A stretch of 49,558 nucleotides of DNA from a virus, in the IMG/VR virus record IMGVR_UViG_3300011013_000020, positions 1-49,558 of that record; one strand, given 5' to 3'. The notes below the pieces were generated by a model that saw only the letters and a list, made by a program, of their open reading frames with translations, was not told the DNA's origin and made no database searches. A program made the position numbers and the translations under genes. Positions 9,397 to 45,453 of the stretch are shown here, one piece after another (position 1 is the stretch's first letter; every line of letters begins with the position of its first letter).

Positions 9397-9417
9397 GCTC
9401 GGGTAGTACCCCTGAGC
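9397..9417 (-). repeat. Boundary element, degenerate copy
   Basis: On the minus strand GCTCAGGGGTACTACCCGAG..., agreeing with the element in CAGGGGTA but not in the GATC end. GCTC/GAGC and GGG/CCC can pair around it. It sits about 17 bases upstream of the start at 9380, the same relation as the clear copies. Confidence 0.4.
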
Positions 9418-9419
9418 CG

Positions 9420-10370
9420 TCAGGAGGACACCAGCCCCTGCGCCATCAGGGAGCGCGCGATCGCGCAGGACACCGGGGGACAGACCGAGTTGCCTACCCG
9501 CGCGATCTGCTGGCGGTACTTCCCCACCAGTTTGTAGTCCTCAGGAAACCCGGTCAGAACCAGCGCCTCGTTGGGGGCGAGGTACCTTCGTTCCCAGTGC
9601 ATGATCATGTTGATCTTGGGGATCGTCGGGGACGGTTTCCGGGGGTCGATCAGAATCCGATTGAACTCCGTGTCCCGTTTCAGCCCGAGCCGGCGGAACA
9701 CCTTCATCCCGTTCTCTCCAGGGCGGGCGTGCTTCAGGAACAAACGAACGCTCGGCGCGGTCACGGGCGGCGTGATTGGGTCCGGGATGACGCCAGCCAA
9801 AGCGCGGCCCGCAGATACGAAATGCCGATGGGTCGCCTCGGGCAAATCCGGACGGCGCTCGCGCGAGCCAACGAAGAAAACCCGCGGCCGCAACTGGGCG
9901 ACACCAAACCAGGTCGCCCGCGCCAGCCCGGCGTTGACGTGGTAGCCCAGCGACTCCAGCGACTCGATCACCTCAAAGGCGACCTTCTTCATCTTCCCGC
10001 GGATCATCCCCGCGACGTTCTCCAGCACGACGCACTTCGGCTGGATCTCGCGAACCAGCCGCATCTGCTGCTGGAACAGAGCGTTCCTCGGATCGTCCAA
10101 TACTCGGCGTCCGCTGGTGCTGAACCCCTGACAGGGCGGCGAGCCATCAAGCAGATCGAGTTCTCCGCGCGCGATCCCGAGGGTGTTCATCACCTCCTCA
10201 GCGGTCAGTTTGCAGATGTCCGTGTGGAAGATGGTCGTGTTCGGGTGGTTCTCGCGGTAGCACGCCACCGCGTTCCCTTCCCACTCCACCGCGCCGAGCA
10301 CCTCCGCGCCCGCCATCTTGTACCCGGTCGAACTGCCGCCGCAACCCGAGAACGTCGATACAACCTTCAT
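9420..10370 (-). CDS. DNA (cytosine-5)-methyltransferase
   Basis: 316 residues with the motifs of C5 methyltransferases in order: FSGCGGSS (AdoMet binding, about 7-14), SPPCQGFS with the catalytic Cys (about 78-85), the ENV motif (LENVAGM), QLRPRVF (motif VIII), and GNSVCPP near the end (motif X). All key residues are present, so it should be active. The target recognition region lies between about 190 and 260; its target sequence cannot be predicted. It overlaps the upstream ParB-like gene by four bases (ATGA). In phages such enzymes usually protect DNA from host restriction; no cognate nuclease is seen here. Confidence 0.93.
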   Translation of the reverse strand: MKVVSTFSGCGGSSTGYKMAGAEVLGAVEWEGNAVACYRENHPNTTIFHTDICKLTAEEVMNTLGIARGELDLLDGSPPCQGFSTSGRRVLDDPRNALFQQQMRLVREIQPKCVVLENVAGMIRGKMKKVAFEVIESLESLGYHVNAGLARATWFGVAQLRPRVFFVGSRERRPDLPEATHRHFVSAGRALAGVIPDPITPPVTAPSVRLFLKHARPGENGMKVFRRLGLKRDTEFNRILIDPRKPSPTIPKINMIMHWERRYLAPNEALVLTGFPEDYKLVGKYRQQIARVGNSVCPPVSCAIARSLMAQGLVSS

Positions 10371-10885
10371 TTCTTGAAGGTCTTCTTACAGTGCGGACAG
10401 GTGAGCGTAGTGGTCCGCGGGGTGTAGCCGTCGCCTTTGTTCATCCCCTTCCAGACATCCGTGATCGTGATGTCGTCCAGAAGCGCGTTCACCTCCGTGT
10501 CCGACCAGCCGAGATCGTCGATCGACTCACCAACGGTCTGCAAATCGCCGAGCACATGTGCCAGTTTGTCGCCATCCCAACTCGCGAGCTCTCCGAGGCG
10601 GTTGTCTGCCAGCGCGAGCGCCCGCGCTTCCTCTGCAGACAGATCGAGGAAGCGAACCGGCACTTCCTCCATCTTCAACAGCTTCGCGGCCTCCAGCCGA
10701 GTGTGCCCGGCGATCACCATCCCGTCTTCGCGCCGAGCGATGATGACCGCGCCGAATCCGAACCGCTTGATCGACTCCGAGATCGGGCGAATCGCCTCGC
10801 GGTTCAGCCTCGGGTTGTCCTCCCACGGCGTCAGCCTGGAGATCGGAACCATCTCTGCAACGGCGGTGGCCTGCGGCTCTGACAT
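10367..10885 (-). CDS. ParB-like protein with C-terminal zinc knuckle
   Basis: 172 residues, ATG at 10885 with GGAGG upstream. Residues about 10-90 are a ParB/Srx-type N-terminal domain: PISRLTPWEDNPRLN, SIKRFGFGAVIIARR, and GHTRLEAAKLL in place of the usual GERR motif. The C-terminus has CPHCKKTF, half of a zinc knuckle. Stand-alone ParB-like proteins next to methyltransferase genes are common in phages, where they may guide the methylase or act as nucleases or regulators; which applies here is unknown. The four-base overlap with the methyltransferase gene points to coupled translation. Confidence 0.82.
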   Translation of the reverse strand: MSEPQATAVAEMVPISRLTPWEDNPRLNREAIRPISESIKRFGFGAVIIARREDGMVIAGHTRLEAAKLLKMEEVPVRFLDLSAEEARALALADNRLGELASWDGDKLAHVLGDLQTVGESIDDLGWSDTEVNALLDDITITDVWKGMNKGDGYTPRTTTLTCPHCKKTFKK

Positions 10886-10900
10886 CGGACCTCCACCCCG

Positions 10901-10928
10901 AGGGTATCGTGGAAGGAATACCTGTCAA
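10901..10928 (-). promoter_or_regulatory. Candidate sigma-70-like promoter for the parB/C5-methyltransferase pair
   Basis: Minus strand: a perfect TTGACA (10923-10928 on the plus strand as TGTCAA), a 16-base spacer, then TACCCT (10901-10906), about 16 bases before the ParB-like start at 10885. The -35 is exact and the -10 is weak. This is the best -35 match seen in an intergenic region. Confidence 0.5.
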
Positions 10929-10949
10929 GCGAGGAGGAAAGATAAACAG

Positions 10950-11041
10950 AGGGAGGGCGGGTGACGGGGATCCATCTGGGGGATCGACCCGAACGATGGG
11001 CGGAACCCACGGCGAGAGCAAGGACGCATCCCGCCCTCCCT
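10950..11041 (-). other. 12-bp inverted repeat enclosing 68 bases in intergenic DNA
   Basis: AGGGAGGGCGGG at 10950-10961 is the exact reverse complement of CCCGCCCTCCCT at 11030-11041. The enclosed 68 bases contain no open gene. The pair lies between the stop of the methyltransferase-like gene at 11051 and the promoter-like site for the ParB-like gene. It could close a structured RNA or act as a terminator of the upstream transcript, but there is no T-run after it in the minus direction. Confidence 0.45.
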
Positions 11042-11048
11042 GCTGATC

Positions 11049-11057
11049 ATCTACCCC
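11049..11057 (-). repeat. Boundary element copy
   Basis: GGGGTAGAT on the minus strand; its TAG is the stop codon of the gene ending at 11051. It is 163 bases from the next start, farther than usual. Confidence 0.6.
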
Positions 11058-12253: not shown

Positions 12254-12256
12254 GAC

Positions 12257-12265
12257 ATCTACCCC
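12257..12265 (-). repeat. Boundary element copy
   Basis: GGGGTAGAT on the minus strand, 18 bases before the start at 12238. Its TAG is the stop of the preceding gene (12259-12261). Confidence 0.65.
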
Positions 12266-12510
12266 TCGTGGTCGGCCTCCGTGACCACCCCCGTCCAGTA
12301 CGTCAACAGATGGCCGATCCGATCCCTCGCGATCTCGCGATCCGCTACCAACCCGATGGACTCCTCCACGATGTCCTGCACGCAGGTGGTGAGCACCAAC
12401 ATCTGAGCAGCGCAGATATCGCGCGCGCCGTCAGCGTGACGAATCCGCAACACCTCCAACCGATCGATCGCGCCCACGGTATCGGACAGGCGAGGGCTCG
12501 CGGCTACCAT
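12259..12510 (-). CDS. Hypothetical protein, 83 aa
   Basis: ATG at 12510 overlaps the end of the upstream gene (GGATGGTAG, where TGG-TAG ends one gene and ATG starts this one). The product (DTVGAIDRLEVLRIRHADGARDICAAQML ... HLLTYWTGVVTEADHEG) appears helical, with two cysteines. No family recognised. A longer start at 12588 exists but would run through the preceding gene. Confidence 0.6.
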   Translation of the reverse strand: MVAASPRLSDTVGAIDRLEVLRIRHADGARDICAAQMLVLTTCVQDIVEESIGLVADREIARDRIGHLLTYWTGVVTEADHEG

Positions 12511-18288: not shown

Positions 18289-18297
18289 GATCTACCC
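18289..18297 (-). repeat. Boundary element copy
   Basis: GGGTAGATC on the minus strand, preceded by TCCAA. Its TAG is the stop of the gene ending at 18292. It is 26 bases before the GTG start at 18262. Confidence 0.75.
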
Positions 18298-18816
18298 TTG
18301 GACCGGTCCGGGGTTGCTTGATGCCAGCCCGTCAAGCCATCGATCCTCTGCCGGGTACTCACCCCCGGTCTGCTGACGCTCTACCTCGGCAACCGCCCAC
18401 TTCGCGGCGGCGCGCGGCGTCTTGAATCCGCCGGACACGACGAGCGGCCGCGCGCCGTCCCGATCCAGGGAGCGCCACTCGATCGGCTCGATCACGCTCC
18501 ACCGGTTCCACGCTTTCCGTAGCACCACCAGCGGACAGAGCGGCTTCTCCGCGCGGCCCGTCATAGGATCATCGTCCAGCCAGTGCCACGCGACCGGGAG
18601 ATCGGTCGGGTAGGCGACTCGCTGGTGTTGGGCATCGCCGGCATGGGGCTGCACCTCGTCACCGGCGCCGCCTTCCCCGCAGCCCACGCAGTTGAAAGGG
18701 GAGTCCTCCGGGCCGCCGTTGATTCCGCGAAGGATCGGCGCGCTCATTCCGCTCGGCTTCGCGCCACTGCTCGACTGATCTGCCACAGTCCCCCCTGTCG
18801 TCAGATGGTCCTCCAT
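18292..18816 (-). CDS. Hypothetical protein, 174 aa, with N-terminal cysteine pair
   Basis: Start ATG at 18816 (MEDHLTTGG) lies 11 bases after the upstream stop; the longer frame to 18897 would overlap that gene. A CVGC pair stands at about 43-46. The middle (VAWHWLDDDPMTGRAEKPLCPLVVLRKAWNRW) and the end (GFKTPRAAAKWAVAEVERQ) look globular. It ends PVQG and stops in a boundary element. No family recognised. Confidence 0.62.
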   Translation of the reverse strand: MEDHLTTGGTVADQSSSGAKPSGMSAPILRGINGGPEDSPFNCVGCGEGGAGDEVQPHAGDAQHQRVAYPTDLPVAWHWLDDDPMTGRAEKPLCPLVVLRKAWNRWSVIEPIEWRSLDRDGARPLVVSGGFKTPRAAAKWAVAEVERQQTGGEYPAEDRWLDGLASSNPGPVQG

Positions 18817-18826: not shown

Positions 18827-19504
18827 TCACGACGAGGCGAGGGGGTTCCAGTCCCACTCAGTCCGAGGGCCGCCGGGCCAGCCCGATTCGGGGACATGCG
18901 ACCGGAAGACGAGCAGCAGATGTCCGCCGGGCGGCTGGTCGGCGCGGGTGCCGTCGGGCCGCAGGAAGCGGAAGCGTCGGCCGATCAGGATCTCGTCGGC
19001 GCGTACCAGCCAGGGTTTCATCCAGACGGCGTCCAGCGACTGCGGCAGTAGCGCGAGCACCGTCGGGCCGCGGCGCGACTCCTCCCACGCCTTCTGCACG
19101 AACCGACCCGTGCCGATGAACGGATTGAATTCGCGGGTGGGGTGCTGCTCCTTCGCCCACTTCGGGACGCCGCGCGGACCCCAGGGTGGGTTGATGTAGA
19201 TGGTTCGAATTTTGCTTGGATCGATGTCTGGCGCTGGACCATATGCATCACCACTCTGAAACCGATGTCCGCGCCGCCAGTCTTGGAACAGACAGTCCTG
19301 CTCGGCGGTGAACCAGCGCGCCGCGATGGCGTTCGCGTCCTCTGCGGCGGCGTCCACGTCGATCGTGCCGAAGCGCGCCTCGATGGCGGCGACGAGCTCG
19401 GGCGGCGTCCTCCATCGCATCTTCTCGGTGACTGGGTAACCAGATCGTGCGACGATCAGCTGGCCTGGGGCGTCGGTCGCTCGCCCGTGTCTGTTGTGGC
19501 TCAT
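18827..19504 (-). CDS. DNA N6-adenine methyltransferase, phage Dam-like
   Basis: 225 residues from ATG at 19504, overlapping the upstream stop by four bases (ATGA). It has the phage Dam-like (Phage_N6A_Met) layout: RWRTPPELVAAIEARFG at about 30-46, DVDAAAEDANAIAARWFT, the catalytic NPPW at about 105-108, and the later ALLPQSLDAVWMKPWL. The predicted activity is adenine methylation with S-adenosylmethionine. Together with the C5 enzyme at 9420 the phage would carry two types of DNA methylation. The frame is open to 20176 but only the last 225 codons have protein-like sequence. Confidence 0.85.
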   Translation of the reverse strand: MSHNRHGRATDAPGQLIVARSGYPVTEKMRWRTPPELVAAIEARFGTIDVDAAAEDANAIAARWFTAEQDCLFQDWRRGHRFQSGDAYGPAPDIDPSKIRTIYINPPWGPRGVPKWAKEQHPTREFNPFIGTGRFVQKAWEESRRGPTVLALLPQSLDAVWMKPWLVRADEILIGRRFRFLRPDGTRADQPPGGHLLLVFRSHVPESGWPGGPRTEWDWNPLASS

Positions 19505-20460
19505 GGGTCCTTGCTCCTCTCCTTGATGGGAACCCACTCGGTTCCCGTAGAAATCACCGGCACTGTGGTGTTGGGCTGCAGACCACCAGCGTTGATCGTA
19601 TCGATCAGCTCCTGGGTCAGCGCGGCCTTGCTCGCCTGCTTGATCTGGTTCGCGGCATTGCCGAGGGCGTGGTTGAGCGCCCCCATCGACTGCGTGAGCG
19701 TCGCGATCGAGCGCGTCATCCGATCTGTCGCGAGGGTCTGATCTCTCGCCGGCCTCGGGCCGGATTCGCTGTCGGTGACGGCTGCTCGGGCTGCTCGGAG
19801 TGACTGTTCCGCCGACGCGCGCGCCGGGTTCAGGTAGGGCTCGGCGATCCGCTTCAACTCGCTCGGGAGCCCCGGCATCATCGCGAACCGGACTTGGTCT
19901 CCCTGGGTACTGGTGATCACGAACCGCTCGGGGTTGATCTTCGATGTCCCAGGGGTCGAGCGCGCGAGCTGATCCGGCTTCACGGCTGACGCTGCCGCGT
20001 AGTGGACGGTGAGTCTTCCGGCGCGGCCCTCCGCTGTCAGGCCGGTCACCAGCGGTGACAGTTTGAAGTGGCGCAGCGCCTCCATCGCCTCGTCTGCGGT
20101 CAGGTTGATCCACGCCGCCCCCGACCCGAAGGTGATGTGGTTCCATGCCTCGATCTCTCGGACCCACCGAGCCCACACGGCGGCCGGTAACTCGACCCCC
20201 ACATCCAGCCGCTCAGGCGGCCACGCGATTTTACGGCTGTTCGGCCTCATTAGTACTCCGTCTGGATCGCCTTCCCAAAGCCCGTCCTGGGCGGGATCTG
20301 GAGATCCCCGAACCAGAACCTTTTGTCCGGGCGTGATCCGGACCTTTAGATTTCGGTCGGGATCTCCTTTCTTCGGCAAGATGACCGTCACTGGTCGATC
20401 CTTTGGATCGGCGTTTACGATGCTCGTCCCGAACGAGATGTTGGTCAGCCCCACCGTCAC
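19501..20460 (-). CDS. Hypothetical protein, 319 aa
   Basis: GTG at 20460 is preferred because AAGGAG stands six bases before it; an in-frame ATG at 20475 lies right against the boundary element and lacks such a site. The N-terminal 90 residues are beta-rich (VTVILPKKGDPDRNLKVRITPGQKVLVRG). A middle part follows (ITFGSGAAWINLTADEAMEALRHFKLSP) and the last 100 residues are helical (SIATLTQSMGALNHALGNAANQI). No family recognised. It couples to the Dam-like gene downstream. Confidence 0.7.
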   Translation of the reverse strand: MTVGLTNISFGTSIVNADPKDRPVTVILPKKGDPDRNLKVRITPGQKVLVRGSPDPAQDGLWEGDPDGVLMRPNSRKIAWPPERLDVGVELPAAVWARWVREIEAWNHITFGSGAAWINLTADEAMEALRHFKLSPLVTGLTAEGRAGRLTVHYAAASAVKPDQLARSTPGTSKINPERFVITSTQGDQVRFAMMPGLPSELKRIAEPYLNPARASAEQSLRAARAAVTDSESGPRPARDQTLATDRMTRSIATLTQSMGALNHALGNAANQIKQASKAALTQELIDTINAGGLQPNTTVPVISTGTEWVPIKERSKDP

Positions 20461-21085
20461 CCTTGCTCCTTCCATCTGGATCTACCCTTGAGGCCTGCTG
20501 GCGGTGTCCGCGCCGGACCGTCCAACTTTTCCGGAGCGCCGCCATCTCGGCCGCGCGTTCCAACTCTGCCGCCAATTCACGCCGTGCGGCGGCCATTCGA
20601 TCGGCCCGCTTCCGCTCTCGTATTTGCTGAGATTCCCGGCCCGGAATGTAGTCTGCGTCGATCCGCTGTGCGTGGGCGCGCGCGACCGCCTCCACCCATT
20701 CCAGCGCCGCTTTTCCGTCAAATGACTGGTCGCCGGCGAACACCTGCTCCCGGAGCACTTTGGGTGGGGTGAGTCTCAACAAGAAGCCGACCAACCCCCC
20801 GGCTGGGTGCCTTGCTGCGCGCGAAGCACACTCCGTCGCCAAGGGGTGAGGCGCGCATGTCCGACCGTAGAGCCGGATCGGTACGGGTCGGTTCGACCCC
20901 CTACCGGTGGCGAACACCCGGATCACGAAAGACCGATCCGGACTCCATGCTGAGATCAGCAAGTCCCCCGAGACAGCCGATACCAGCCAGGACTCGGGTA
21001 GTTCTCGTCTCAGATGAGCCGATCCCTGGTGTCGAACCCGCTCCGCAGGGGCGAGAGTCTGCCGCTTAGGTTGCGAGCGCGACAC
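20231..21085 (-). CDS. Hypothetical protein, 3' end uncertain, probable frameshift
   Basis: ATG at 21085 opens a frame of 284 codons. Residues 1-185 look real (SWLVSAVSGDLLISAWSPDRSFVIRVFATG ... helical, Arg/Glu/Ala-rich ELAAELERAAEMAALRK). After that the sequence turns Arg/Ser/Gly-rich and runs 230 bases into the next gene. At a run of four A on the coding strand (plus-strand CTTTTCC, 20526-20532) the loss of one base would give an end at TAG 20482 (RPQG, stop inside a boundary element, as for other genes here). A shift the other way would stop at 20457, overlapping the next GTG. The gene probably ended near 20482. Family unknown. Confidence 0.5.
   Translation of the reverse strand: MSRSQPKRQTLAPAERVRHQGSAHLRRELPESWLVSAVSGDLLISAWSPDRSFVIRVFATGRGSNRPVPIRLYGRTCAPHPLATECASRAARHPAGGLVGFLLRLTPPKVLREQVFAGDQSFDGKAALEWVEAVARAHAQRIDADYIPGRESQQIRERKRADRMAAARRELAAELERAAEMAALRKSWTVRRGHRQQASRVDPDGRSKGDGGADQHLVRDEHRKRRSKGSTSDGHLAEERRSRPKSKGPDHARTKGSGSGISRSRPGRALGRRSRRSTNEAEQP
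20479..20487 (-). repeat. Boundary element copy
   Basis: GGGTAGATC on the minus strand, preceded by CTCAA, 18 bases before the GTG start at 20460. Confidence 0.75.
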
Positions 21086-21383
21086 CGATCCCTACCACCA
21101 CCAGAGCGGCTACGCCGAACCCGGCCATCGCGGCGGCGGCAATCGTGATCCAGATCTGCAGACGAGACACAGATAGGCCGCTCGTCCGCACCTCCGATAT
21201 CTCTGTTTCAACCACCTCGTCGGGTGGTTCCATCACGAACGCGAGCCGCGTCTTTCCGCGCTCCTCGACCGGCATGGATGCGACTACCCGGTACCCCTGG
21301 GCCCGGAGAGCTCCAAGTTGTGGAGACTGAACCGCCTTCTGCAGATCCTCCATCCCGACGGACACGACCTCGTAGAGTTTCAT
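21066..21383 (-). CDS. Small membrane protein, 105 aa
   Basis: ATG at 21383 overlaps the end of the DinG-like gene by four bases. The first 70 residues are soluble (YEVVSVGMEDLQKAVQSPQLGALRAQGYRVV). The C-terminus has one membrane helix (IWITIAAAAMAGFGVAALVVV, about 77-100), so this looks like a tail-anchored protein facing the cytoplasm. Function unknown. Its end overlaps the next start by 20 bases. Confidence 0.7.
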   Translation of the reverse strand: MKLYEVVSVGMEDLQKAVQSPQLGALRAQGYRVVASMPVEERGKTRLAFVMEPPDEVVETEISEVRTSGLSVSRLQIWITIAAAAMAGFGVAALVVVGIGVALAT

Positions 21384-32962: not shown

Positions 32963-33540
32963 CAGGCAGCAGATCCGAGATAGGCGGAGCCGAGTTCACG
33001 CAGTAGTAGATCCCGCTCCTTCAAGGTGCATCGGATCTGGCGTCGCACTTCTCGACTATCCCAGCCCTCGACCACCGAGAGCGCGGCCTTCACCTGCTTG
33101 GGGGTGCCGGTGGAGAGCATCGCGGGGAGCATCGTTTCGATGTTCACCTCCACGACCATCGCCTCCTCGGTGCCCCACCCGTTGTGGGCTTCCCACATCC
33201 CGTCGCCGTTGGCCGGGGTGAACGCGCTATCTGCGCCCGACTCCACTACAACGCCCATCGTGCACACCGGCTGCGTAGAGGTCGCGAGGTCCTGTCGGAC
33301 GTTCAGGCGTCGGAGTTCCTTGTCCCTGCGCGCGCGAGTGCGCCAGTAGATCCAGGTGACCGCTGAGCCGCGCTCAGGATCGAACTTGTGGGCGTGCTTC
33401 GCGATGTACTCGATCAGACGAGAGTGGAATTCCTCCAACTCCAGGCGACCGTCCCGCCACATCTGACGAGCCTTCGCGTAGATCTCGTCTGAATGGGCCA
33501 GGACGAAGGCCCAGTTTTCCGGGGAATAGGGGTAGGACAT
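32962..33540 (-). CDS. Sigma-70 region 2-like transcription factor
   Basis: 192 residues, ATG at 33540 with AGCAAGGAG upstream. Residues about 30-75 resemble sigma region 2: LIEYIAKHAHKFDPERGSAV then TWIYWRTRARRDKELRR, matching the FDPxxGxxFxTW pattern used for -10 recognition and core binding. The C-terminal part (TPKQVKAALSVVEGWDSREVRRQIRC) could be a divergent region 4 with a helix-turn-helix. A phage-coded sigma factor would redirect host polymerase to phage promoters. The expected full region 4 is not clear, so it may be an unusual or one-domain factor. Confidence 0.65.
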   Translation of the reverse strand: MSYPYSPENWAFVLAHSDEIYAKARQMWRDGRLELEEFHSRLIEYIAKHAHKFDPERGSAVTWIYWRTRARRDKELRRLNVRQDLATSTQPVCTMGVVVESGADSAFTPANGDGMWEAHNGWGTEEAMVVEVNIETMLPAMLSTGTPKQVKAALSVVEGWDSREVRRQIRCTLKERDLLLRELGSAYLGSAA

Positions 33541-33573: not shown

Positions 33574-33588
33574 ATCGTATCGTATCCC
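33574..33588 (-). promoter_or_regulatory. Tandem TACGAT boxes upstream of the sigma-like gene
   Basis: In the 57-base gap upstream of 33540 the minus strand reads ATACGATACGATCG, two overlapping -10-like boxes about 35-45 bases before the start. No good -35 is visible. The same string occurs at 16048-16058. Confidence 0.3.
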
Positions 33589-33597
33589 GCCAGCGGG

Positions 33598-34014
33598 TTA
33601 GTTGAACACCCGGATCGACGATATTTTTGTGGGCGCAATCTCGATTCCGCGTGGGCGGTCGCCGTGGTCGATGGCCCAAATCTCATAGAGTCGCCCGTAC
33701 ATCCAGTCCTCGAGTGGGGGTCCGCCACGCAGGACCCGCCAGAGGGCTACTCGGACGATGTCGAGGTGCTTCCCCTCGCTGGGCGCATGGCGCACGTAGA
33801 AGGCCTGCACCTTCGGGTGCAGCATGGACCAACGACCCGCCCAGGCCCGGAGCTGATTCACCTCGCGCCGTGTCACTCCCCCCTCACCCCGTAGAGCGTC
33901 GAGTAGTTGCTGCACCCGGCCTCCGACTGGAGCCCACCCCCCGAGGGGGGCGAGCGGCTGGATTTCAGCGAGCAGAGCATAGACGGTGATGATGTCCGGA
34001 GGCTCGCCCGTCAC
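33598..34014 (-). CDS. Hypothetical protein, 138 aa, downstream of vWA gene
   Basis: GTG at 34014 overlaps the TGA of the vWA gene (GTGA). The sequence is a believable helical protein (IITVYALLAEIQPLAPLGGWAPVGG ... KVQAFYVRHAPSEGKHLDIVRVALW). A longer frame to 34434 is a shadow of the vWA gene. The tight overlap suggests it works with the vWA/AAA pair. No family recognised. Confidence 0.65.
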   Translation of the reverse strand: MTGEPPDIITVYALLAEIQPLAPLGGWAPVGGRVQQLLDALRGEGGVTRREVNQLRAWAGRWSMLHPKVQAFYVRHAPSEGKHLDIVRVALWRVLRGGPPLEDWMYGRLYEIWAIDHGDRPRGIEIAPTKISSIRVFN

Positions 34015-35567
34015 GCGGGGAGCACGCGAGCGAGGTGCTTCGCGTCCGGGTCGAAGTCGATCGCAACGTCGCAGATCATCTCCATCGCTGGGGTGATGCT
34101 GCCGCCGCCCATCGCGATCCCGTAGATTCGCATCCCCGCCGCCTTCGCTTCTGTCATCGGCCCTTCGACCTGAGGGGGAACATGGGCCTGACCGTCTGTG
34201 ATGAAGACGAGATCCGGCCGCTCCTCTCCGTTGAGCACGCGCATCGCGAACATCAGCGGCGGCCCGAAGTTGGTCCCTCCACTGCACCCTCGCTGGATCA
34301 GCTCCAGCGCCATCCTCGGCAGATCGCCATGGACTCGCGACTCTTTTCCCGATCGGGGATTGCCTCGGTAGCACTGGCCCAACCGATCCATCCGATGAAT
34401 GCTCGTCAGTCCACCGTTGAAGCCGATCACCCACACGGGGCGACGAGCTCGCCGCGCGATCTGAACGCAGGCCAGCGTGATCCCGCGCGCGATGGCGTTG
34501 AAGGAGAGCGGGAGGCCCGCGCGCATGGAACTGGACTCATCCACCAGTACGACCAGGGCTCCGCGACCCATCGGCTCGTGTCCTTCCAAGCGATATTGCA
34601 GCGCCTGTCGATCTGCGATCGCCTTCAGGGCGAGCAGGCGCCGAACACCACCAGCCCGCAAAGTGGCGAGCTGAGAAGGGAGAATTCGCGCGAGATCTCC
34701 ACCGCGCTCGATGTCCACCACCTCCTCGTAGGAATCGCGTGTCCGGCGCACCTGAGCCTCGCGCAGCGAGATCCGCTCCAGTCGCCCGGCGAGGTCTACG
34801 ATCTTCTGGACATCAGGCTGGCGCTCCAACTCCTCCGCGAGCTTCATCCGAATCGGGTCGGGCTGATCCTGCATCGCCGGGGCGGCGGCGAGGCCCGGCG
34901 CGAGACCGGCGAGCCCAGCGCGCGCGGCCGATACTCGCTCCAACGCAGAAGCCGCAGCGGCGCGCGCGGCGGCGCGTGCACCGACCATCGGATCAACAGT
35001 GAATCCGGGCGCTTTCCCCTGCCCTTGTCCTGGCGACTGTCCCTGACCCTGTCCCGCGGACCGTCCCTGGCCGGGCGCCCCGGCTCCACCTCCAGGCTGA
35101 GCCTGTCCGGCCTGCTGCTTCTCGCGCTCCTCCTGTTCCTTCCGCTGACGCTCTGCCTCCTCGGCGAGATCACGCAGCCGAGGAGCCAGAGCCTCCAGCA
35201 TCTCGGCTGTCGCCAGCGCGGCCATGTCCGAATCGCCCTCAACGAGGGCCCGCAGAGACTGGAAATCCTCGATCTTGTCCAGGACGCCGTGAGCCAGCGG
35301 AGCCCATGGCGCGTCTGCCTCTGGCATCTCCAGCAGATTCGGATCGCCGTAGAGCCGCGCGAAGACATCCAGCCCGAACCGATCCCCGATCGCATCGGGC
35401 GCGACCCCGTCCAAGGAAATCTGCTCGGCGGCGTCCACGACATCCCCGATCGCACCCTGCAGACGCCGACCAGACCGGCGCGAATCAAACAAACGCTCCT
35501 GCCAACGGCTGGTGTCGTAGACCAAGGGATCGAGCCCCCGCTTCAAGGTGTAGCGATCGCGCCCCAT
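34011..35567 (-). CDS. von Willebrand A (vWA) domain protein, ViaA-like partner
   Basis: 518 residues. A helical N-terminal part (about 1-150) is followed by a Gly/Gln/Pro-rich linker (about 150-190) and a C-terminal vWA domain. The metal-site (MIDAS) residues are present: VDESSSM at about 342-348 (DxSxS), GGTNFGPPL (Thr) and FITDGQAH (Asp). In bacteria such proteins pair with MoxR-type ATPases (ViaA with RavA). Here the ATPase gene ends two bases upstream at 35569, giving the same pair. The likely job is as substrate adaptor in a chaperone-like machine; the phage target is unknown. Confidence 0.82.
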   Translation of the reverse strand: MGRDRYTLKRGLDPLVYDTSRWQERLFDSRRSGRRLQGAIGDVVDAAEQISLDGVAPDAIGDRFGLDVFARLYGDPNLLEMPEADAPWAPLAHGVLDKIEDFQSLRALVEGDSDMAALATAEMLEALAPRLRDLAEEAERQRKEQEEREKQQAGQAQPGGGAGAPGQGRSAGQGQGQSPGQGQGKAPGFTVDPMVGARAAARAAAASALERVSAARAGLAGLAPGLAAAPAMQDQPDPIRMKLAEELERQPDVQKIVDLAGRLERISLREAQVRRTRDSYEEVVDIERGGDLARILPSQLATLRAGGVRRLLALKAIADRQALQYRLEGHEPMGRGALVVLVDESSSMRAGLPLSFNAIARGITLACVQIARRARRPVWVIGFNGGLTSIHRMDRLGQCYRGNPRSGKESRVHGDLPRMALELIQRGCSGGTNFGPPLMFAMRVLNGEERPDLVFITDGQAHVPPQVEGPMTEAKAAGMRIYGIAMGGGSITPAMEMICDVAIDFDPDAKHLARVLPA

Positions 35568-35568
35568 C

Positions 35569-36723
35569 TCAGAGCCCCATCGCTTCGGCGACAGCGCGCT
35601 TGATCGAGGTCTCCATCTTCCCGATGTCTGAGATCACCTCCTGAATCTGCCAGCTCTGCTTCAGCGCCTCGGCCTCCGCCTTCAACGCCTGAAGCCGGCG
35701 ACGCGCCTCCAGCGCGGGCGCGGTTTCGATCTTCGACAGGTCCACCGTCTGAAACGCCTCCACCGCGGTGTCCCGGATCCGCAGCGCCTCGTTGAGATCG
35801 GGCGAGGCCTTACCCACCACGATCGAGGTGACGGTCGGAACATCCTCCGGGAGATCCCACAGGCAGTCCTTCAAGATGATCGCGTCGTCCGGCAGCGCCT
35901 CGGTCCGGCCGTTCAGCAGGGCGCGAGCCTGGATCAGACTCATGCCCACCTTGTATCGGCGATCAGAGGGAGCGATCCCCTTCTCGGAGAGCTCACGTCG
36001 AATCTCGATCACGACATCCACGACCTCATCGCCTACGACGACCTGAGCCGCCATCGCGCGCAAAGCGTCGAGATCTCCGGGCTCCAGCGCCGACACCGCG
36101 GGGGGCGTGGTGCCACTGCGGAGGAGCGCGCGAAAGTTGTCCTCGTCGTTGAGGTAGCGGACCCAGCGGCGCAGCACGAACCGATCGTAGAGCGCCGCGA
36201 GTCCGTCGTCCTGTGGGGTCTCGTTGCTCATGCCGAGGCAGAACTCCAGCGGGCAGTCGATCCGAGTGGTCCCGTTGTCAAATGCGCGCTCGTTGAGCAG
36301 CGTCAGCAGGTGGTTGAGGATCGCAGAGTTGGCCTTGAAGATCTCGTCCAGCACGGCGAACTGAACCTCGGGGAGATACTTCTCGATCTTCCGCTCGTAG
36401 CGATCTTCCTCCAGTCCGCGGAGGGAGTACGGGCCGAACAGCTCCTCGGGGACGGAGTGCTTCGTGAGCAGCCGGACGAAGATGCGATCGCGATCGATCC
36501 CGAGGCCGCGGGCGAGCATCATCGCGAGGTAGGTCTTCCCCGTGCCCGGAGGGCCCAAGAGCAAGAGGTGCTGCCCGGCGATCGCGGTAATCAGCGCGCA
36601 CTGCACCTCCTCCTTCCGCTCCAGAAGGGCGGCATCGAGAGAGGTCCGCAGCGCGCCGAGTCGGGCGAGCACTGCGAGGTCCGCGTCGGGTCGGACGGTG
36701 GTAGTCGAGGGGGGAAGGGTCAT
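35569..36723 (-). CDS. MoxR-family AAA+ ATPase, RavA-like
   Basis: 384 residues from ATG at 36723 with AGCAAGGAG upstream. Walker A GPPGTGKT is at about 57-64, Walker B AVLDEIFKANSAILN near 122-136, sensor 1 GMSNETP, and the RavA-type block EELFGPYSLRGLEEDRYE before it. The closest family by eye is RavA/MoxR. The C-terminus is a long helix (RRLQALKAEAEALKQSW). MoxR ATPases remodel or load cofactors into protein complexes together with a vWA partner, which is the next gene. The longer frame to 36915 overlaps the upstream gene and is rejected. Confidence 0.88.
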   Translation of the reverse strand: MTLPPSTTTVRPDADLAVLARLGALRTSLDAALLERKEEVQCALITAIAGQHLLLLGPPGTGKTYLAMMLARGLGIDRDRIFVRLLTKHSVPEELFGPYSLRGLEEDRYERKIEKYLPEVQFAVLDEIFKANSAILNHLLTLLNERAFDNGTTRIDCPLEFCLGMSNETPQDDGLAALYDRFVLRRWVRYLNDEDNFRALLRSGTTPPAVSALEPGDLDALRAMAAQVVVGDEVVDVVIEIRRELSEKGIAPSDRRYKVGMSLIQARALLNGRTEALPDDAIILKDCLWDLPEDVPTVTSIVVGKASPDLNEALRIRDTAVEAFQTVDLSKIETAPALEARRRLQALKAEAEALKQSWQIQEVISDIGKMETSIKRAVAEAMGL

Positions 36724-36766: not shown

Positions 36767-36775
36767 GACCTACCC
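36767..36775 (-). repeat. Boundary element copy
   Basis: GGGTAGGTC on the minus strand, preceded by CCCAA, 43 bases before the RavA-like start. The upstream gene stops earlier, so the TAG is not a stop here. Confidence 0.7.
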
Positions 36776-37464: not shown

Positions 37465-38643
37465 TCAGGCGCTCGGCGCCGGCGTGCTCTCAACCATCGA
37501 CCCCGCGCACCAGAGCACGTTGCCGTCTTCCGTCTTCCCCTCGCGCCGGATCTCTCCACGCCGCTCCAGCTTTCGCAGGTACATCGCGAGGGTTTCTGAC
37601 TGGATCGTGACCTCATTCTCCAAGTCGTCCAGCGTGAAGGCTCCTCGCCGGGCGTAGAGGTTCCGCGCAACCCCGAGAGTCCGAAGCGCGCCGACCCCCA
37701 GGGGTTTCGTGTTCGGATTTGAGTGTGCGTCGATGTTCCCGTCGATCAACTCGCGAGCGCGAGCGCGGCTCGCCTCGATGGCTACGCTGATGTCGTCCAG
37801 TCGGATCTGCAGGGAGTCGGCGTAGAGGCTCGCTCGCTCTGCGAGATCCGTGTAGCGCGCGAGCGTAGACGCGATGGCGTCGGTGCGGATCTTCCGGGTG
37901 GACGCCTGCCAGTCCTCCAACTTGTCCTCGAGTGTGGAGAGCTCAGACCGGATCTCCGTCTGAACCCCGGACACCACCGCATATCGCGTGGATGACGTGG
38001 GGAGCAGATTCACGCAGTGCAGATCACTACTCCCGATCGCGCGAACGACTCGCTGCAGAGCGCCGAGGTCTGACATCGCGGCCTGCGGGACGTACCAGAT
38101 CCCGCTGCTCGCCTTCACCGAGAAGGCGCGGAGTCGCGAGAGCTCGCGGTGAATCACGTTCGGCCGGATGAAGGTGTGGTCCAGGAATTCGATCATCCCG
38201 TCGGCCATCGCCACGAACGCACGGACCATCGCGGTATCGGCGGAAACCGTCCACCGCCGAGTGGTGGTGTCCAGCACCACACTGTCCACCGTCCTCCAGT
38301 CCAACGCCTTGGAGCGCCCCTGTCCGCGGACGCGCCGACGCTGCAGACAGACCTTCACCACGTCGGAATCCTCGATCTTGACCACCTCGCCGCGGTAGCG
38401 GCGGCCGTCGTCGTCCTTCGACTTCCAGGCGCGTGCGGCGCGGCGGGCCTCGGTTGCCGGGTCTGGATCGGGGACGTCGATGCTCAAGCCCTCGCGATCG
38501 AGAATGCCTCGCAGCGCGGCGGGCCGGATCTTCGTTCCGTAGAGATCCCACCAGCAGAGCGCCCCGAGCCCATTTCTCGCTTCCTGCACGAAGCCGTCGA
38601 GCCCCGCGATTTCCGGGCCGGGACCTGTTCCATTCGTCGTCAT
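37465..38643 (-). CDS. Unknown protein with C-terminal winged-helix-like end, 392 aa
   Basis: ATG at 38643 with GGGAGAGG upstream. The N-terminal part (GALCWWDLYGTKIRPAALRGILDREGL ... TEARRAARAWKSK) recalls, from memory, DUF6744-type proteins that occur near MoxR/vWA genes in actinobacterial phages; this is not verified. A middle helical part (LSTLEDKLEDWQASTRKIRTDAIASTL) may form a coiled coil. The last 70 residues (RRGAFTLDDLENEVTIQSETLAMYLRKLERRGEI) look like a winged helix. A regulator or adaptor for the neighbouring ATPase is a guess. Confidence 0.62.
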   Translation of the reverse strand: MTTNGTGPGPEIAGLDGFVQEARNGLGALCWWDLYGTKIRPAALRGILDREGLSIDVPDPDPATEARRAARAWKSKDDDGRRYRGEVVKIEDSDVVKVCLQRRRVRGQGRSKALDWRTVDSVVLDTTTRRWTVSADTAMVRAFVAMADGMIEFLDHTFIRPNVIHRELSRLRAFSVKASSGIWYVPQAAMSDLGALQRVVRAIGSSDLHCVNLLPTSSTRYAVVSGVQTEIRSELSTLEDKLEDWQASTRKIRTDAIASTLARYTDLAERASLYADSLQIRLDDISVAIEASRARARELIDGNIDAHSNPNTKPLGVGALRTLGVARNLYARRGAFTLDDLENEVTIQSETLAMYLRKLERRGEIRREGKTEDGNVLWCAGSMVESTPAPSA

Positions 38644-38683: not shown

Positions 38684-38694
38684 GATCTAATCCC
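38684..38694 (-). repeat. Boundary element, variant copy
   Basis: GGGATTAGATC on the minus strand (consensus GGGGTAGATC with two changes), 40 bases before the start at 38643. Confidence 0.45.
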
Positions 38695-39582: not shown

Positions 39583-40042
39583 CGTCGGTACCTCCTGGAG
39601 AGGACCTACCCCCCGCCGCCGTGTTCTTGCCGTCCCAAGGGCCGGGGAGCACCCGAGCATTTCCCCCTGGGGATACCCGAAGCACCCGGACCTCCAGCCC
39701 AATCACCGCGAGCCCGTGCGCCACGCCTTCACAGAAAGCGCGAAGTCCATCGGCACCATCGATCGGCTCCCACTCTCCTCGCACTTTGGCTTCCGTGAGG
39801 AAGGTCACCGGGCGAGGACCCCGCCCAACTTTCGGAGGGAGGCAGTCGTCGCGCTTCGCGCGGTAGTAGCAGCTGGAGCAGAGGCCCCGCCCATTCACGG
39901 GCTTCTTGCACCCCGATGTCGAACACCGTCCCGCCTGCAACAGACGAGCGATCCTCTGGTAGTGAAGCGTGCAGCGCCCGCGCGCATGAACGGGACGCCG
40001 ACACCCGAGCGCCGAGCACTCTCCTCGAGGTCGAGCGTTCAC
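39575..40042 (-). CDS. Double zinc-knuckle protein, 155 aa
   Basis: GTG at 40042 overlaps the upstream TGA (GTGA), the coupling used elsewhere here; an in-frame ATG at 40075 is the alternative. Two finger units stand at about 8-30 (CSALGCRRPVHARGRCTLHYQ) and 35-58 (CSTSGCKKPVNGRGLCSSCYY), the same C-x4-C-x8-9-G-x-C-x2-[HC] pattern as the three fingers of the protein at 16394. The C-terminal half (DGLRAFCEGVAHGLAVIGLEVRVLRV) is globular. Zinc and possibly nucleic-acid binding is expected. Confidence 0.65.
   Translation of the reverse strand: MNARPRGECSALGCRRPVHARGRCTLHYQRIARLLQAGRCSTSGCKKPVNGRGLCSSCYYRAKRDDCLPPKVGRGPRPVTFLTEAKVRGEWEPIDGADGLRAFCEGVAHGLAVIGLEVRVLRVSPGGNARVLPGPWDGKNTAAGGRSSPGGTDDG
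39603..39611 (-). repeat. Boundary element copy inside the 3' end of a gene
   Basis: GGGTAGGTC on the minus strand, read through as Gly-Arg-Ser in the zinc-knuckle gene, 20 bases before the start at 39582. Confidence 0.5.
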
Positions 40043-40400: not shown

Positions 40401-40409
40401 GGTCTACCC
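40401..40409 (-). repeat. Boundary element copy
   Basis: GGGTAGACC on the minus strand within GAGG-GTAGA-CCTC, 21 bases before the tiny frame at 40379. CATCGAGGG occurs twice here, 24 bases apart. Confidence 0.6.
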
Positions 40410-40417: not shown

Positions 40418-40753
40418 CTACTTCACGATCCGGAAGGCGTGATAGACCGAGCGGAACGCCGCCCGATCTACCCGCATGTGGACGCCAGCGTGGGTTTCCA
40501 CCTGCTCGCCCTCTCGGTTCGTCCGGTAGGTGCGGCTCACGCGCACCGCCTGAAGGCTGCTCGCGCGGACACGCCGCAGGAGGTGGGCAGCGACTGATCC
40601 GCGGCCCGCGTACACGGTCACGAAGTCGTCGCCGCGGCAGTCGGAGATCGAGCACTCGTCCTCGCGGCTACCGGTCACGCCGGCGAACTCTGCGATCAAC
40701 TCGTCCACGCGCTCCTGCGTTGGGTTCTGTTCCCATTCGGGTAGGGTCGGCAT
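40418..40753 (-). CDS. Hypothetical protein, 111 aa
   Basis: ATG at 40753 with AAGGAA upstream. Sequence (QERVDELIAEFAGVTGSREDECSISDCRGDDFVTVYAGRGSV, in part, then VHMRVDRAAFRSVYHAFRIVK) appears alpha/beta with two cysteines. No family recognised. It stands alone between two boundary elements. Confidence 0.68.
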   Translation of the reverse strand: MPTLPEWEQNPTQERVDELIAEFAGVTGSREDECSISDCRGDDFVTVYAGRGSVAAHLLRRVRASSLQAVRVSRTYRTNREGEQVETHAGVHMRVDRAAFRSVYHAFRIVK

Positions 40754-40795: not shown

Positions 40796-40817
40796 CACCA
40801 GTGATCTACCCCTGGTG
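40796..40817 (-). repeat. Boundary element copy with hairpin flanks
   Basis: CACCAG-GGGTAGATCA-CTGGTG on the minus strand: six pairs, ten-base loop with the core. TAG stops the gene ending at 40806. It lies 42 bases before the start at 40753. Confidence 0.8.
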
Positions 40818-41354: not shown

Positions 41355-41378
41355 CGTCGTTCTCCCATGACCTTCACC

Positions 41379-41386
41379 ATCTACCC
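41379..41386 (-). repeat. Boundary element copy
   Basis: GGGTAGAT on the minus strand, preceded by CTCAG; TAG stops the gene ending at 41381. It is 24 bases before the start at 41354. Confidence 0.7.
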
Positions 41387-43036: not shown

Positions 43037-43045
43037 GTTCTACCC
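43037..43045 (-). repeat. Boundary element copy
   Basis: GGGTAGAAC on the minus strand after a C/G-run, in the 175-base gap between 43067 and 42893. It is 144 bases from the annotated start at 42892. I see nothing else in this gap beyond a CCGGC-ACCA-GCCGG hairpin. Confidence 0.45.
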
Positions 43046-43250: not shown

Positions 43251-43259
43251 GACCTACCC
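43251..43259 (-). repeat. Boundary element copy
   Basis: GGGTAGGTC on the minus strand, preceded by CCCAG, 21 bases before the start at 43229. Confidence 0.7.
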
Positions 43260-43365: not shown

Positions 43366-43707
43366 TCAGAGCGCGTCGAACACAATCCGCCGGGTTCGTT
43401 CAGGGGTCAGGCCGTCAGGATGATGGGGGAGTCCGAGGAATGCCCGGCGAGCCTCTTTCCTGAGCGCCGCGTAGCCCTTCATCGCCTCCTTCAGCGTCAA
43501 CAGTTCAGCGACACCCATCAGGGCCCATCCGGCCGTTAGGTCAGCTTCTGCGCCCCATCCTGTCGATGCTTGGCCGAGGCCGGGGAGGTGGAAGCCGAAA
43601 GCCCCCGCTAGGTGGCCGTCGGAACGCAACACCAGCGCCTTTTCGTCCATAGTCTGTCGGCGAGCGACGACATGGGCGTCTGTTCGTCCGCAGGTGCAGT
43701 GTGACAT
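43366..43707 (-). CDS. Hypothetical protein, 113 aa, with N-terminal cysteines
   Basis: Start ATG at 43707 (MSHCTCGRTDAHVV) with AAAGGAG upstream. A CTC pair stands at the N-terminus. The remainder (GHLAGAFGFHLPGLGQASTGWGAEADLTAGWALMGVAELLTLKEAMKGY, in part) looks helical with Gly-rich segments. The frame is open to 44286, but that part is a shadow of the plus-strand gene. It is divergent from the gene at 43810. Function unknown. Confidence 0.65.
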   Translation of the reverse strand: MSHCTCGRTDAHVVARRQTMDEKALVLRSDGHLAGAFGFHLPGLGQASTGWGAEADLTAGWALMGVAELLTLKEAMKGYAALRKEARRAFLGLPHHPDGLTPERTRRIVFDAL

Positions 43708-43729
43708 GAAATCTCCTTTGCTCGATCTC

Positions 43730-43738
43730 GATCTACCC
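43730..43738 (-). repeat. Boundary element copy, minus orientation of a divergent pair
   Basis: GGGTAGATC on the minus strand, preceded by CCCAG, 22 bases before the minus-strand start at 43707. No minus-strand gene lies immediately upstream, so it cannot be a stop-codon effect. Confidence 0.8.
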
Positions 43739-43779: not shown

Positions 43780-43797
43780 CTCGGGGGTAGATCCGAG
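43780..43797 (+). repeat. Boundary element copy, plus orientation
   Basis: CTCGG-GGGTAGAT-CCGAG on the plus strand: five pairs around the core, 12 bases before the plus-strand start at 43810. It is the only clear copy seen in this orientation, and it precedes the only plus-strand gene in this half of the window. Confidence 0.8.
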
Positions 43798-43809
43798 ATT
43801 GGAGGATCG

Positions 43810-44211
43810 ATGCGCGGAGATTTTCAGGACAAGGACTTCACGGGCCGGCTGGTGCTGGCACCCAACGGTGACCCCGATTGGGATTGGTGGACGATCGAAC
43901 GAGCAGATCACGATGGCTCTCATGGGCTGGAGCCGCTCGGAGACATCGGACTCGCCTTCACCTACTCGGGCCGGATCACCAACGCCGACGTTGAAGGAAA
44001 CTCCGACGAGATGAAGGCGATCGCGGAAGCGATCCTTCGGGGTGAGTCGGAATCGTTCCGTCGTTGCGCGGCGTACAAACAGGGAGATCACTACCTGTTC
44101 AACAGCCCGCGTAATTCGATGTACTCGGCGCGCGTGCCGATGGCCGAGGCCCGGCGGTTCGCGGAGGCTGCGCTGCAGAAACTCGCGAAGCACGCAGAGG
44201 AGTCGCCGTGA
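43810..44211 (+). CDS. Hypothetical protein, 133 aa, plus strand
   Basis: ATG at 43810 preceded by GGAGGATCG. Sequence MRGDFQDKDFTGRLVLAPNGDPDWDWWTIERADHDG (in part), then a helical end (MAEARRFAEAALQKLAKHAEESP). It resembles small phage proteins with a beta-sheet followed by helices. Together with the next gene it forms a short plus-strand unit opposed to everything around it. No family assigned. Confidence 0.7.
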   Translation: MRGDFQDKDFTGRLVLAPNGDPDWDWWTIERADHDGSHGLEPLGDIGLAFTYSGRITNADVEGNSDEMKAIAEAILRGESESFRRCAAYKQGDHYLFNSPRNSMYSARVPMAEARRFAEAALQKLAKHAEESP

Positions 44212-44489: not shown

Positions 44490-44566
44490 ACGTGCACCGA
44501 CGCCGAGAGAAGGGCTCGGATCGCCTGCTCTCGCTCAGCCTCGGCCAACTCGTCCCACATCGTCAC
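44342..44566 (-). CDS. Hypothetical helical protein, 74 aa
   Basis: ATG at 44566 overlaps the upstream stop by four bases (ATGA). The product (WDELAEAEREQAIRALLSASVHVHRQRFAGKHEQD ... WALMAKLKRLRRAA, in part) is clearly protein-like and helical. Its last 48 codons lie over the end of the plus-strand gene. No family recognised. Confidence 0.62.
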   Translation of the reverse strand: MTMWDELAEAEREQAIRALLSASVHVHRQRFAGKHEQDRADSLAWQDEHWALMAKLKRLRRAASRVRGRSSVSA

Positions 44567-45000
44567 TCCAGCACCCAGCGCGGAACCTCGTACTCCTCAA
44601 AGTCGCCGACGGAGAGGCGGTCGCCGATCTTCTTCCCGCCTAAGCGGATCACCGACCGCGGGATCCAGTGCTTCCCCTGGTCGCCGGCGTTCACGCGGAC
44701 AGCCTTCTCCCGCTCCTCGACCACCTCGCAGATCAAGGACACGCGATCCCAGTCTCGATCCGACAGCGTGCGCTTGCCGGCGGCGCGTCGCGGATCGACT
44801 ACCAGATCCGGAACGGTGGGCACCATCGGGGCCTCAACATCGCCAGGGAGGTCGGGACAACCGGCGTTGACCCACTGAGCCTGCGTCGACCCCACGCTTC
44901 GGCGGCGCTCGCGAATCAAAACGCTTTTCGTTGGGGAGGACTGCACCGTGCGGACGAGTTTCGCTGTCGCTCGCAGGTACGCCAGAGTCGTATGGTGCAT
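44563..45000 (-). CDS. Hypothetical protein, 145 aa
   Basis: ATG at 45000 with GGGAGG upstream. The C-terminal half (HWIPRSVIRLGGKKIGDRLSVGDFEEYEVPRWVLE) is beta-rich and ends in a pattern of charged and aromatic residues seen in small RNA- or nuclease-fold proteins, but no family can be fixed. Coupled to the 74-residue gene downstream. Confidence 0.68.
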   Translation of the reverse strand: MHHTTLAYLRATAKLVRTVQSSPTKSVLIRERRRSVGSTQAQWVNAGCPDLPGDVEAPMVPTVPDLVVDPRRAAGKRTLSDRDWDRVSLICEVVEEREKAVRVNAGDQGKHWIPRSVIRLGGKKIGDRLSVGDFEEYEVPRWVLE

Positions 45001-45035
45001 CGCTCACCTCCCGCGGCCGGAAAGCCACCGAGAAG

Positions 45036-45044
45036 CATCTACCC
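45036..45044 (-). repeat. Boundary element copy
   Basis: GGGTAGATG on the minus strand, preceded by CCCAG; TAG stops the gene ending at 45039. It is 35 bases before the start at 45000. Confidence 0.7.
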
Positions 45045-45257
45045 CTGGGAGAGCAGAAACACCCCGAGCCCACCACCTACCGCTCGTTGGAATGCCTCGT
45101 AGATGGTTCTCCGTTCCCCGTGTCCTCGCTGAGAAACCCCTTGACGGGGATGGTTGGCTGTCGACTTCTCCCCGAGAAACAGGGTCAGGATGCAGAAGCA
45201 CTTACGGATGAAGTGCATTCGACGGCCGCAGTAGTCGCAGCGGCGGCACCGTTTCAT
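45039..45257 (-). CDS. Small zinc-finger-like protein, 72 aa
   Basis: Start ATG at 45257 (MKRCRRCDYCGRRMHFIRKC), eight bases after the upstream stop, with AAGGCG upstream. The N-terminus holds five cysteines in 22 residues (CRRCDYCG ... KCFC), a likely metal site. It ends SQG with the stop in a boundary element. An upstream in-frame GTG/ATG region reaching 45341 is Arg-rich and not preferred. Confidence 0.6.
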   Translation of the reverse strand: MKRCRRCDYCGRRMHFIRKCFCILTLFLGEKSTANHPRQGVSQRGHGERRTIYEAFQRAVGGGLGVFLLSQG

Positions 45258-45264
45258 CAGCGCC

Positions 45265-45453
45265 TTATTTCGTCTTCTCTGCCCCGCTCGTCGTATGGTT
45301 CGTGCTCTTTGGTTTCGTTGCCGTTGTCGTCCCACACGCACCTCGCGGGCGCGATCTACCCGCGGAGCAGGTCCGAATGATCAGGACCGTCAGGAGCACC
45401 AGCGCCGGCACGTCGATCCAGAGGACGGCATCACGACCCGGAATCGTGCCCAT
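45265..45453 (-). CDS. Small single-helix membrane protein, 62 aa
   Basis: ATG at 45453 overlaps the end of the upstream gene by 23 bases. One membrane helix (AVLWIDVPALVLLTVLIIRT, about 9-28) is followed by a basic, Thr/Lys-rich tail, an arrangement like small holin-associated or spanin-like proteins. Function unproven. A boundary element copy is contained in its 3' half. Confidence 0.6.
   Translation of the reverse strand: MGTIPGRDAVLWIDVPALVLLTVLIIRTCSAGRSRPRGACGTTTATKPKSTNHTTSGAEKTK
45344..45364 (-). repeat. Boundary element copy with hairpin
   Basis: CGCGGG-TAGATCGCG-CCCGCG on the minus strand: six pairs. It is read through in the 62-residue gene (no in-frame stop) and lies about 95 bases before the start at 45257. 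Confidence 0.55.

Follow-up and report, generated by a model that had tools for sequence, protein, structure and literature searches.

A dispersed gene-boundary element in an uncultured tailed phage is probably an extended -10 promoter, with a phage ECF-like sigma factor as its likely reader

The virus sequence analyzed here (49,558 nt, referred to as the window) carries a short element, GGGTAGATC, at about twenty gene boundaries. We consider it probable that this element forms the extended -10 of about 20 promoters, likely read by an ECF-like sigma factor that the phage itself encodes. When judged against related phage genomes, an extended -10 promoter element is its most likely identity. The core would consist of GGG followed by the hexamer TAGATC, and each promoter would front one gene or a short operon in the replication and regulatory region of this uncultured tailed phage. 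The motif, its placement, a two-box counterpart in a relative, and the sigma gene with its predicted fold are direct observations; promoter activity, its reader and its timing are what we infer.

Allowing up to one mismatch, GGGTAGATC occurs 47 times in the window, compared with 11.5 occurrences expected from dinucleotide shuffles (sd 3.5, maximum 21), and 12 of the copies are exact (11 on the minus strand, one on the plus strand at 43785). A position weight matrix derived from the motif copies (consensus C-C-(A/C)-(A/G)-GGGTAGAT(C/G)), trained on the same sites that it then scored, returned 20 strong gene-strand copies (score ≥12) against 3 on the opposite strand. Eighteen of these 20 fall within the 11.5% of the genome outside called coding sequences (binomial p = 2e-15), being intergenic or overlapping a stop codon only. 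An unseeded motif search of 52 gene-upstream regions yielded GGGTAGAT as the top seed, present in 14 regions versus 0.9 expected. A preliminary description had reported a dispersed element at about 20 gene boundaries, in gene orientation and mostly between genes, and had suggested a motif search and counts in both orientations and in coding DNA; these analyses show that the element is real and not equally frequent in coding DNA or on the opposite strand. Its listed coordinates are correct to within 1 base, and to its listing we add two missed copies, at 27606-27614 and, inside a coding frame, at 40465-40473. Among the loose copies it proposed, that at 24521 (GGGTTAGGC) is plausible, that at 9397 corresponds to GGGTACTAC at 9403-9411, and those at 17484 and 26915 are unsupported. 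The copy at 38684 (GATTAGATC) gains support from the closest relative, which has GGGGTAGAAA at the orthologous boundary. The reported absence from head and tail genes holds for strong copies, which are confined to 11048-45361; three weak GGGTA versions do occur there (9411, 5596 and 4193).

On the minus strand, predicted promoter cores reading GGGTAGATC lie at 18289-18297, 20479-20487 (18 nt before the start at 20460), 23496-23504 (19 nt before the helicase gene 21380-23476), 26606-26614 (26 nt before the primase/helicase gene 24522-26579), 27606-27614, 28495-28503 (before gene 27754-28428), 30861-30869 (21 nt before the PD-(D/E)XK exonuclease gene 29331-30839), 40803-40811 (49 nt before the start at 40753) and 43730-43738 (22 nt before the start at 43707), with a further core copy at 45353-45361. 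The same strand carries predicted cores of the form GGGTAGATG at 11048-11056, 12256-12264 (17 nt before the start at 12238), 41378-41386 (23 nt before the start at 41354) and 45036-45044 (35 nt before the start at 45000), and of the form GGGTAGGTC at 36767-36775 (43 nt before the MoxR-like ATPase gene 35569-36723), 39603-39611 (20 nt before the start at 39582) and 43251-43259 (21 nt before the ATG at 43229). Also on this strand are a predicted core GGGTAGACC at 40401-40409, followed by gggag and ATG, and a core copy GGGTAGAAC at 43037-43045. The only exact plus-strand copy (43785-43793) precedes a plus-strand gene (43810-44211) by 16 nt; together with the copy at 43730-43738 to its left, which faces the divergent gene, it makes up a back-to-back pair. 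As a separate observation, absent from the preliminary description, at least six copies have a TAG that doubles as the stop codon of the gene before them, among them those at 12264 (gene 12259-12510), 18297 (gene 18292-18816), 26614, 28503 (a Sak4-like gene), 40811 and 41386.

From the end of the core to the start codon the distance is 16-66 nt (median 21.5), with a separate Shine-Dalgarno sequence in between, and the minimum of 16 nt fits the order of -10, start site and Shine-Dalgarno expected of a promoter. If data on phiEco32 and 7-11 are a guide, the transcription start would lie 6-9 bp past the element, and the resulting leader would be short and contain its own Shine-Dalgarno sequence. 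Copies placed in leaders, in gene orientation and near start codons would also suit an element acting in translation or at the RNA level, be it a start-associated sequence, a protein-binding loop or a processing site. We regard this as very unlikely, given the variable distance to the start codon and the intervening Shine-Dalgarno sequence; in addition, a leader starting at the element would not include the fixed CTT(G/C) box found in the closest relative (see below). The RNA loop considered in the preliminary description is likewise disfavored, as 18 copies yielded neither consensus pairs nor a consensus RNA structure, and no Rfam match to the element was found. The start-associated sequences of cluster K mycobacteriophages, named there as a parallel, do resemble the element in layout, with a similar copy number, one orientation, a location in the non-structural region and an upstream stop codon sometimes inside (PMC3203893). 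They differ in position and content: the 13-bp cluster K sequence (GGGATAGGAGCCC) contains AGGAG and occupies the ribosome-binding position (PMC3203893), whereas the window element lies upstream of the Shine-Dalgarno sequence at variable distance and thus does not qualify as a start-associated sequence.

Relatives of the phage were located with a 74-aa MoxR fragment; earlier single-protein searches, in which the chosen peptides were unconserved, had returned none. The closest relative (G001) shares 55-58% identity in its large proteins, and alignment searches with primase, TerL and helicase found none nearer. Isolated phages gave no DNA match to the half of the window that was compared, with best identities of ~22% for TerL and ~25% for primase, and a scan of genome contigs produced distant matches only, the best in a Myxococcales MAG. 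A scan of IMG/VR for the motif combined with a Shine-Dalgarno sequence and a start codon gave seven matches with one strong copy each, which we attribute to chance; the weaker matches in L007 were repeat-gene matches.

Scanning relatives, as the preliminary description had proposed, revealed that the element continues at the same boundaries in G001 in the form CTT(G/C)-N17-GGGTA. When the spacing was varied from 8 to 30, 11 matches were obtained at exactly 17 and at most 3 at any other value, with 0 matches on the opposite strand at 17. All 11 copies precede genes and lie outside coding sequences (P about 4e-12). The TTG-to-TA distance of 23 bases matches TTGACA-N17-TATAAT, and sigma-70-type promoters have a spacing of 17 between their -35 and -10 boxes. 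The boundaries common to both genomes are those of the MoxR gene (CTTG-N17-GGGTAAGTG in G001), the DUF6744 gene 37465-38643 (CTTG-N17-GGGTAGAAA, the counterpart of the weak minus-strand copy at 38684-38692 in the window), the exonuclease gene (CTTC-N17-GGGTAGAAG), gene 27754-28428 (CTTC-N17-GGGTAGATC), the primase gene (GGGTACACC), the helicase gene 21380-23476 (CTTC-N17-GGGTATCCC) and gene 19501-20460 (GGGTACACC). In another relative (L067), gene boundaries show a TTGACA/TTGAC-type -35 with a TATAAC/TATAAT -10, so that the -10 forms can be arranged from TATAAC/TATAAT (L067) through GGGGTACAAC at such boundaries in L097 and GGGTAGAAG/GGGTACACC in G001 to GGGTAGATC in the window. For these intergenic boxes, reading by eye outperformed unseeded seeds, and the top seeds in three relatives (G002, G003 and G005) looked like composition effects.

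The 17-spaced partner box of G001, together with the -35 and -10 boxes of the relatives, makes an extended -10 the most likely identity of GGGTAGATC and favors the promoter element among the readings of the preliminary description. As expected of promoters, the window has a conserved -10 box upstream of genes and in gene orientation; a -35 box at fixed spacing is present in G001 (11 matches versus 0) and was not found in the window, where column counts and k-mer tests showed no enrichment of a second conserved box or a fixed -35 spacing. At column -21, the G shared by 13 of 20 copies is probably a chance effect. A -35 box is typical of sigma promoters, yet it is missing from extended -10 and phiEco32-type promoters. 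In the window, then, it is the extended -10 form and the comparison with relatives, of which G001 is the one close relative found, that support the promoter reading.

The same comparison bears on whether the element could be an operator of the stoperator type, an asymmetric site at which a phage repressor blocks transcription at many boundaries. Its asymmetry, its single orientation with transcription, its short intergenic locations and its about 20-25 copies do recall the layout of L5 stoperators (PMC9283540). We nevertheless think such a role highly unlikely: its sequence differs from that of L5, the 17-bp partner box at fixed spacing in G001 and the TATAA-type sequences in L067 would be unexpected for a repressor site, and neither a repressor nor an integrase was found among the scanned proteins (covering part of the small ORFs), which also counts against the regulator-binding site proposed in the preliminary description.

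A plausible reader of the putative promoters is encoded at 32962-33540 on the minus strand. This 192-aa protein matches Sigma70_r2 (4.6e-5, narrowly missing the Pfam cut-off) and, in PDB profile searches, RpoE/ECF SigE (8e-6); its region 4 gave no Pfam match by sequence. In the predicted structure, sigma2 and sigma4 (helices 134-191) both reach pLDDT >90, joined by a disordered linker (90-133) with no sigma3, so that the model conforms to a two-domain ECF-like sigma factor. The nearest folds are the ECF sigmas SigK, SigH, SigL and sigmaE, although with weak Foldseek E-values (4e-3 at best) because the two-domain arrangement is flexible. Sigma homologues are present in the window and ten relatives. 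We propose that host RNA polymerase, equipped with this sigma factor, would read the GGGTAGATC promoters, while the sigma gene itself may be driven from a different, more host-like candidate promoter (33574-33606, minus strand; TTCAAC-N16-TACGAT, TACGAT being repeated 5 bp further along).

Alternatively, the -10 could be read by a host sigma, housekeeping or alternative, with the phage sigma serving another promoter class. L067 and G005/G007 carry boxes nearer ordinary sigma-70 forms despite a sigma homologue, which would allow promoters of this class to be read by a host sigma; the TTGACA-TATAAT-like promoters at L067 boundaries and the resemblance of the G001 -35 box CTTG to the sigma-70 TTG point the same way. 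We consider this rather doubtful, as sigma-70 -10 elements need a final T and TAGATC shows it in none of the 20 copies, which speaks against host sigma-70; the differing promoter of the sigma gene and the conservation of the phage sigma across the family also weigh against it.

If the phage sigma is the reader, the lineage of the window may have lost the -35 box and acquired a longer and stricter -10, in step with a loss of positive charge in the region-4 recognition helix. The net charge of this helix is 0 in the window and +3 to +9 in 10 of 10 homologues, a contrast of one lineage with ten, and region 4 still folds with high confidence, which leaves some doubt about whether -35 recognition has been lost. 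Taken with this charge loss, the series from TTGACA-N17-TATAAC through CTT(G/C)-N17-GGGTA to the single-box GGGTAGATC raises the tentative possibility that a sigma factor and about twenty promoters shifted specificity jointly. If true, the series would be a natural record of such a change. Because its members have two-box or one-box forms in front of shared genes, the family makes sigma/promoter co-evolution directly testable. If our main reading is right, an unannotated phage family, for which the searches turned up no close relative in culture, would gain a transcription map from sequence alone, with about 20 promoters and the sigma factor that probably reads them.

The nearest precedent appears to be the contrast between phiEco32 and 7-11, the only comparable pair that we found in the literature, in which related phages with different sigma factors use one-box and two-box promoters, respectively (PMC8948821). 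The middle and late promoters of phiEco32, six of which were mapped, contain the single element tAATGTAtA and depend on the sigma factor gp36 (PMC8948821). Like the about 20 predicted promoters of the window, they have one highly conserved box without a -35, scattered ahead of genes and oriented with them, and their reader is a phage-encoded sigma, as we propose here; the sequence differs, the phage is unrelated, and gp36 has no recognizable region 4, whereas the window sigma keeps a folded region 4 in its predicted structure. The experimentally mapped late promoters of 7-11 are bipartite (GTAAtg-(16)-aCTA) and read by gp47 (PMC8948821), a sigma with a region 4; they share two boxes at fixed spacing with the predicted CTT(G/C)-N17-GGGTA promoters of G001, in other sequences.

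Twelve exact copies of GGGTAGATC occur in the window, and allowing up to one mismatch raises the count to 47, compared with 11.5 expected from shuffled sequences (maximum 21). The preliminary description had proposed a dispersed element at gene boundaries, and an unseeded motif search confirmed it by recovering GGGTAGAT in 14 of 52 upstream regions (0.9 expected). A weight matrix with the consensus C-C-(A/C)-(A/G)-GGGTAGAT(C/G), trained on these same sites, yielded at a score ≥12 20 matches on the gene strand versus 3 on the other, with 18 of the 20 outside called CDS, where non-CDS makes up 11.5% of the genome (p 2e-15); the gene-orientation bias and scarcity in coding DNA described earlier are thus borne out. 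The element is present where boundaries in the window leave intergenic room and absent where genes overlap, and in at least six copies its own TAG also terminates the preceding reading frame. The one exact plus-strand copy, at 43785, belongs to 43810-44211, a gene on the same strand, and forms a back-to-back pair with the copy at 43738 that serves the divergent gene, which ties the element to gene starts rather than to upstream-gene ends. Distances to the start codon are 16–66 nt (median 21.5) in the window and 16–74 nt (median 25) in its closest relative, G001; the minimum suits the room needed for a -10 element, start site and Shine-Dalgarno sequence.

The window (49,558 bases, 65% G+C, an entire IMG/VR virus record) carries 53 of its 56 called genes on the minus strand. 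Encoded proteins include TerL, portal, methyltransferases, helicases, a primase/helicase, a Sak4-like protein, a PD-(D/E)XK exonuclease, a sigma-like factor, and vWA and MoxR-like proteins; tRNA and Rfam searches of the window gave zero matches. One of the two DNA methyltransferases (9420-10370 and 18827-19504) is of the Dam type. The MoxR-like AAA ATPase and vWA pair (34011-36723) lies in the replication region, and these genes adjoin in most relatives.

Using a 74-aa MoxR fragment as query, we found 35 relatives in IMG/VR. G001 (L013, L048-L051; 64 kb) is syntenic with the window along most of the genome, at 58% identity in TerL and 55% in both portal and primase; primase identity is 40–47% in G002, G003, G005, G007, L019, L022, L067, L097 and more. 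In the primase match of L117 (10001-13060; Myxococcales MAG JABSQV010000130.1), 671 residues align over 3,060 bases, ~1 kb more than expected, with an intein, intron or insertion as candidates.

The association with particular boundaries extends to G001, where the element is kept before seven matching genes: MoxR, DUF6744, exonuclease, primase, 27754-28428, helicase 21380-23476 and 19501-20460 (window coordinates). G001 sites picked by their GGGTA core also conserve a C at -21 and a T at -20. On its gene strand, CTT(G/C)-N17-GGGTA occurs 11 times, compared with at most three copies for any other spacing from 8 to 30 and none with a 17-base spacing on the opposite strand; all 11 lie outside CDS and upstream of genes (~0.5 expected, P 4e-12). 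The TTG-to-TA distance of 23 equals that in TTGACA-N17-TATAAT. Elsewhere in G001, two similar 30-base promoter-like sequences, CTTGCC..CTA(A/T)CCCACCACCGGGTAA, precede the vWA and sigma genes (45288 and 47672) and possibly form a subclass for regulatory genes; CTAACCC, present in one of them, recurs in the candidate promoter of the window's sigma gene. Directly behind one promoter copy of G001 (~43400-43440), the presumed leader contains a long and seemingly perfect hairpin, GAAGGGGGTGGGGGC-TTCG-GCCTCCACCCCCTTC.

Several gene boundaries of L067 (53% G+C) show TTGACA-N17/18 followed by TATAAC, TATAAT or TATAAG, together with a single CCCCAGGGCTATAAAT similar to the window's CCCCCCAGGGGTAGATC; L097 has GGGGTACAAC immediately 5' of Shine-Dalgarno sequences, and G005, G007, L019 and L022 have CTTGCG...CTAACCG...GGTTA...GTCAGCAG in common at comparable boundaries. 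Taken as a series, these boxes put GGGTAGATC, on sequence comparison, at the -10 position. In the last four relatives the long dispersed form, CTTGCG...CTAACCG-N6/7-CGGTTA...GTCAGCAG, precedes many genes (e.g. L019 ~3350, 4598, 5871); its TAACCG/CGGTTA inverted repeat and the presumed -10 overlap each other, and operator and promoter may therefore be superposed.

We infer that the element sites initiate transcription, and that the genes behind them are of the early or middle class. Their probable reader is the phage sigma factor (32962-33540, minus strand), although a host sigma may fill this role. This protein matches Sigma70_r2 just below the Pfam cut-off (4.6e-5) and RpoE/ECF SigE in a PDB profile search (8e-6). 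Its structure model comprises sigma2 (7-87) and sigma4 (134-191), each with pLDDT >90, joined by a disordered linker; the closest folds are the ECF sigmas SigK, SigH, SigL and sigmaE, with weak E-values. Homologues were found in ten relatives. The region-4 recognition helix has a net charge of 0 in the window versus +3 to +9 in the other ten, and arginine replaces the turn glycine of most homologues. The uncharged helix, seen in one lineage, agrees with the window's missing -35 box, which was probably lost in that lineage. Upstream of the sigma gene itself lies a different promoter-like sequence, TTCAAC-N16-TACGAT, and no GGGTAGATC element, as a cascade would need.

The likeness of the element to cluster K SAS (PMC3203893) and L5 stoperators (PMC9283540) is confined to layout. 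A closer parallel comes from phiEco32, whose sigma gp36 has no region 4 and reads the single element tAATGTAtA, and phage 7-11, whose gp47 has region 4 and reads GTAAtg-(16)-aCTA; their promoters occupy similar genome positions, with starts 6–9 bp away (PMC8948821). The window and G001 would seem to form another one-box/two-box pair of this kind.
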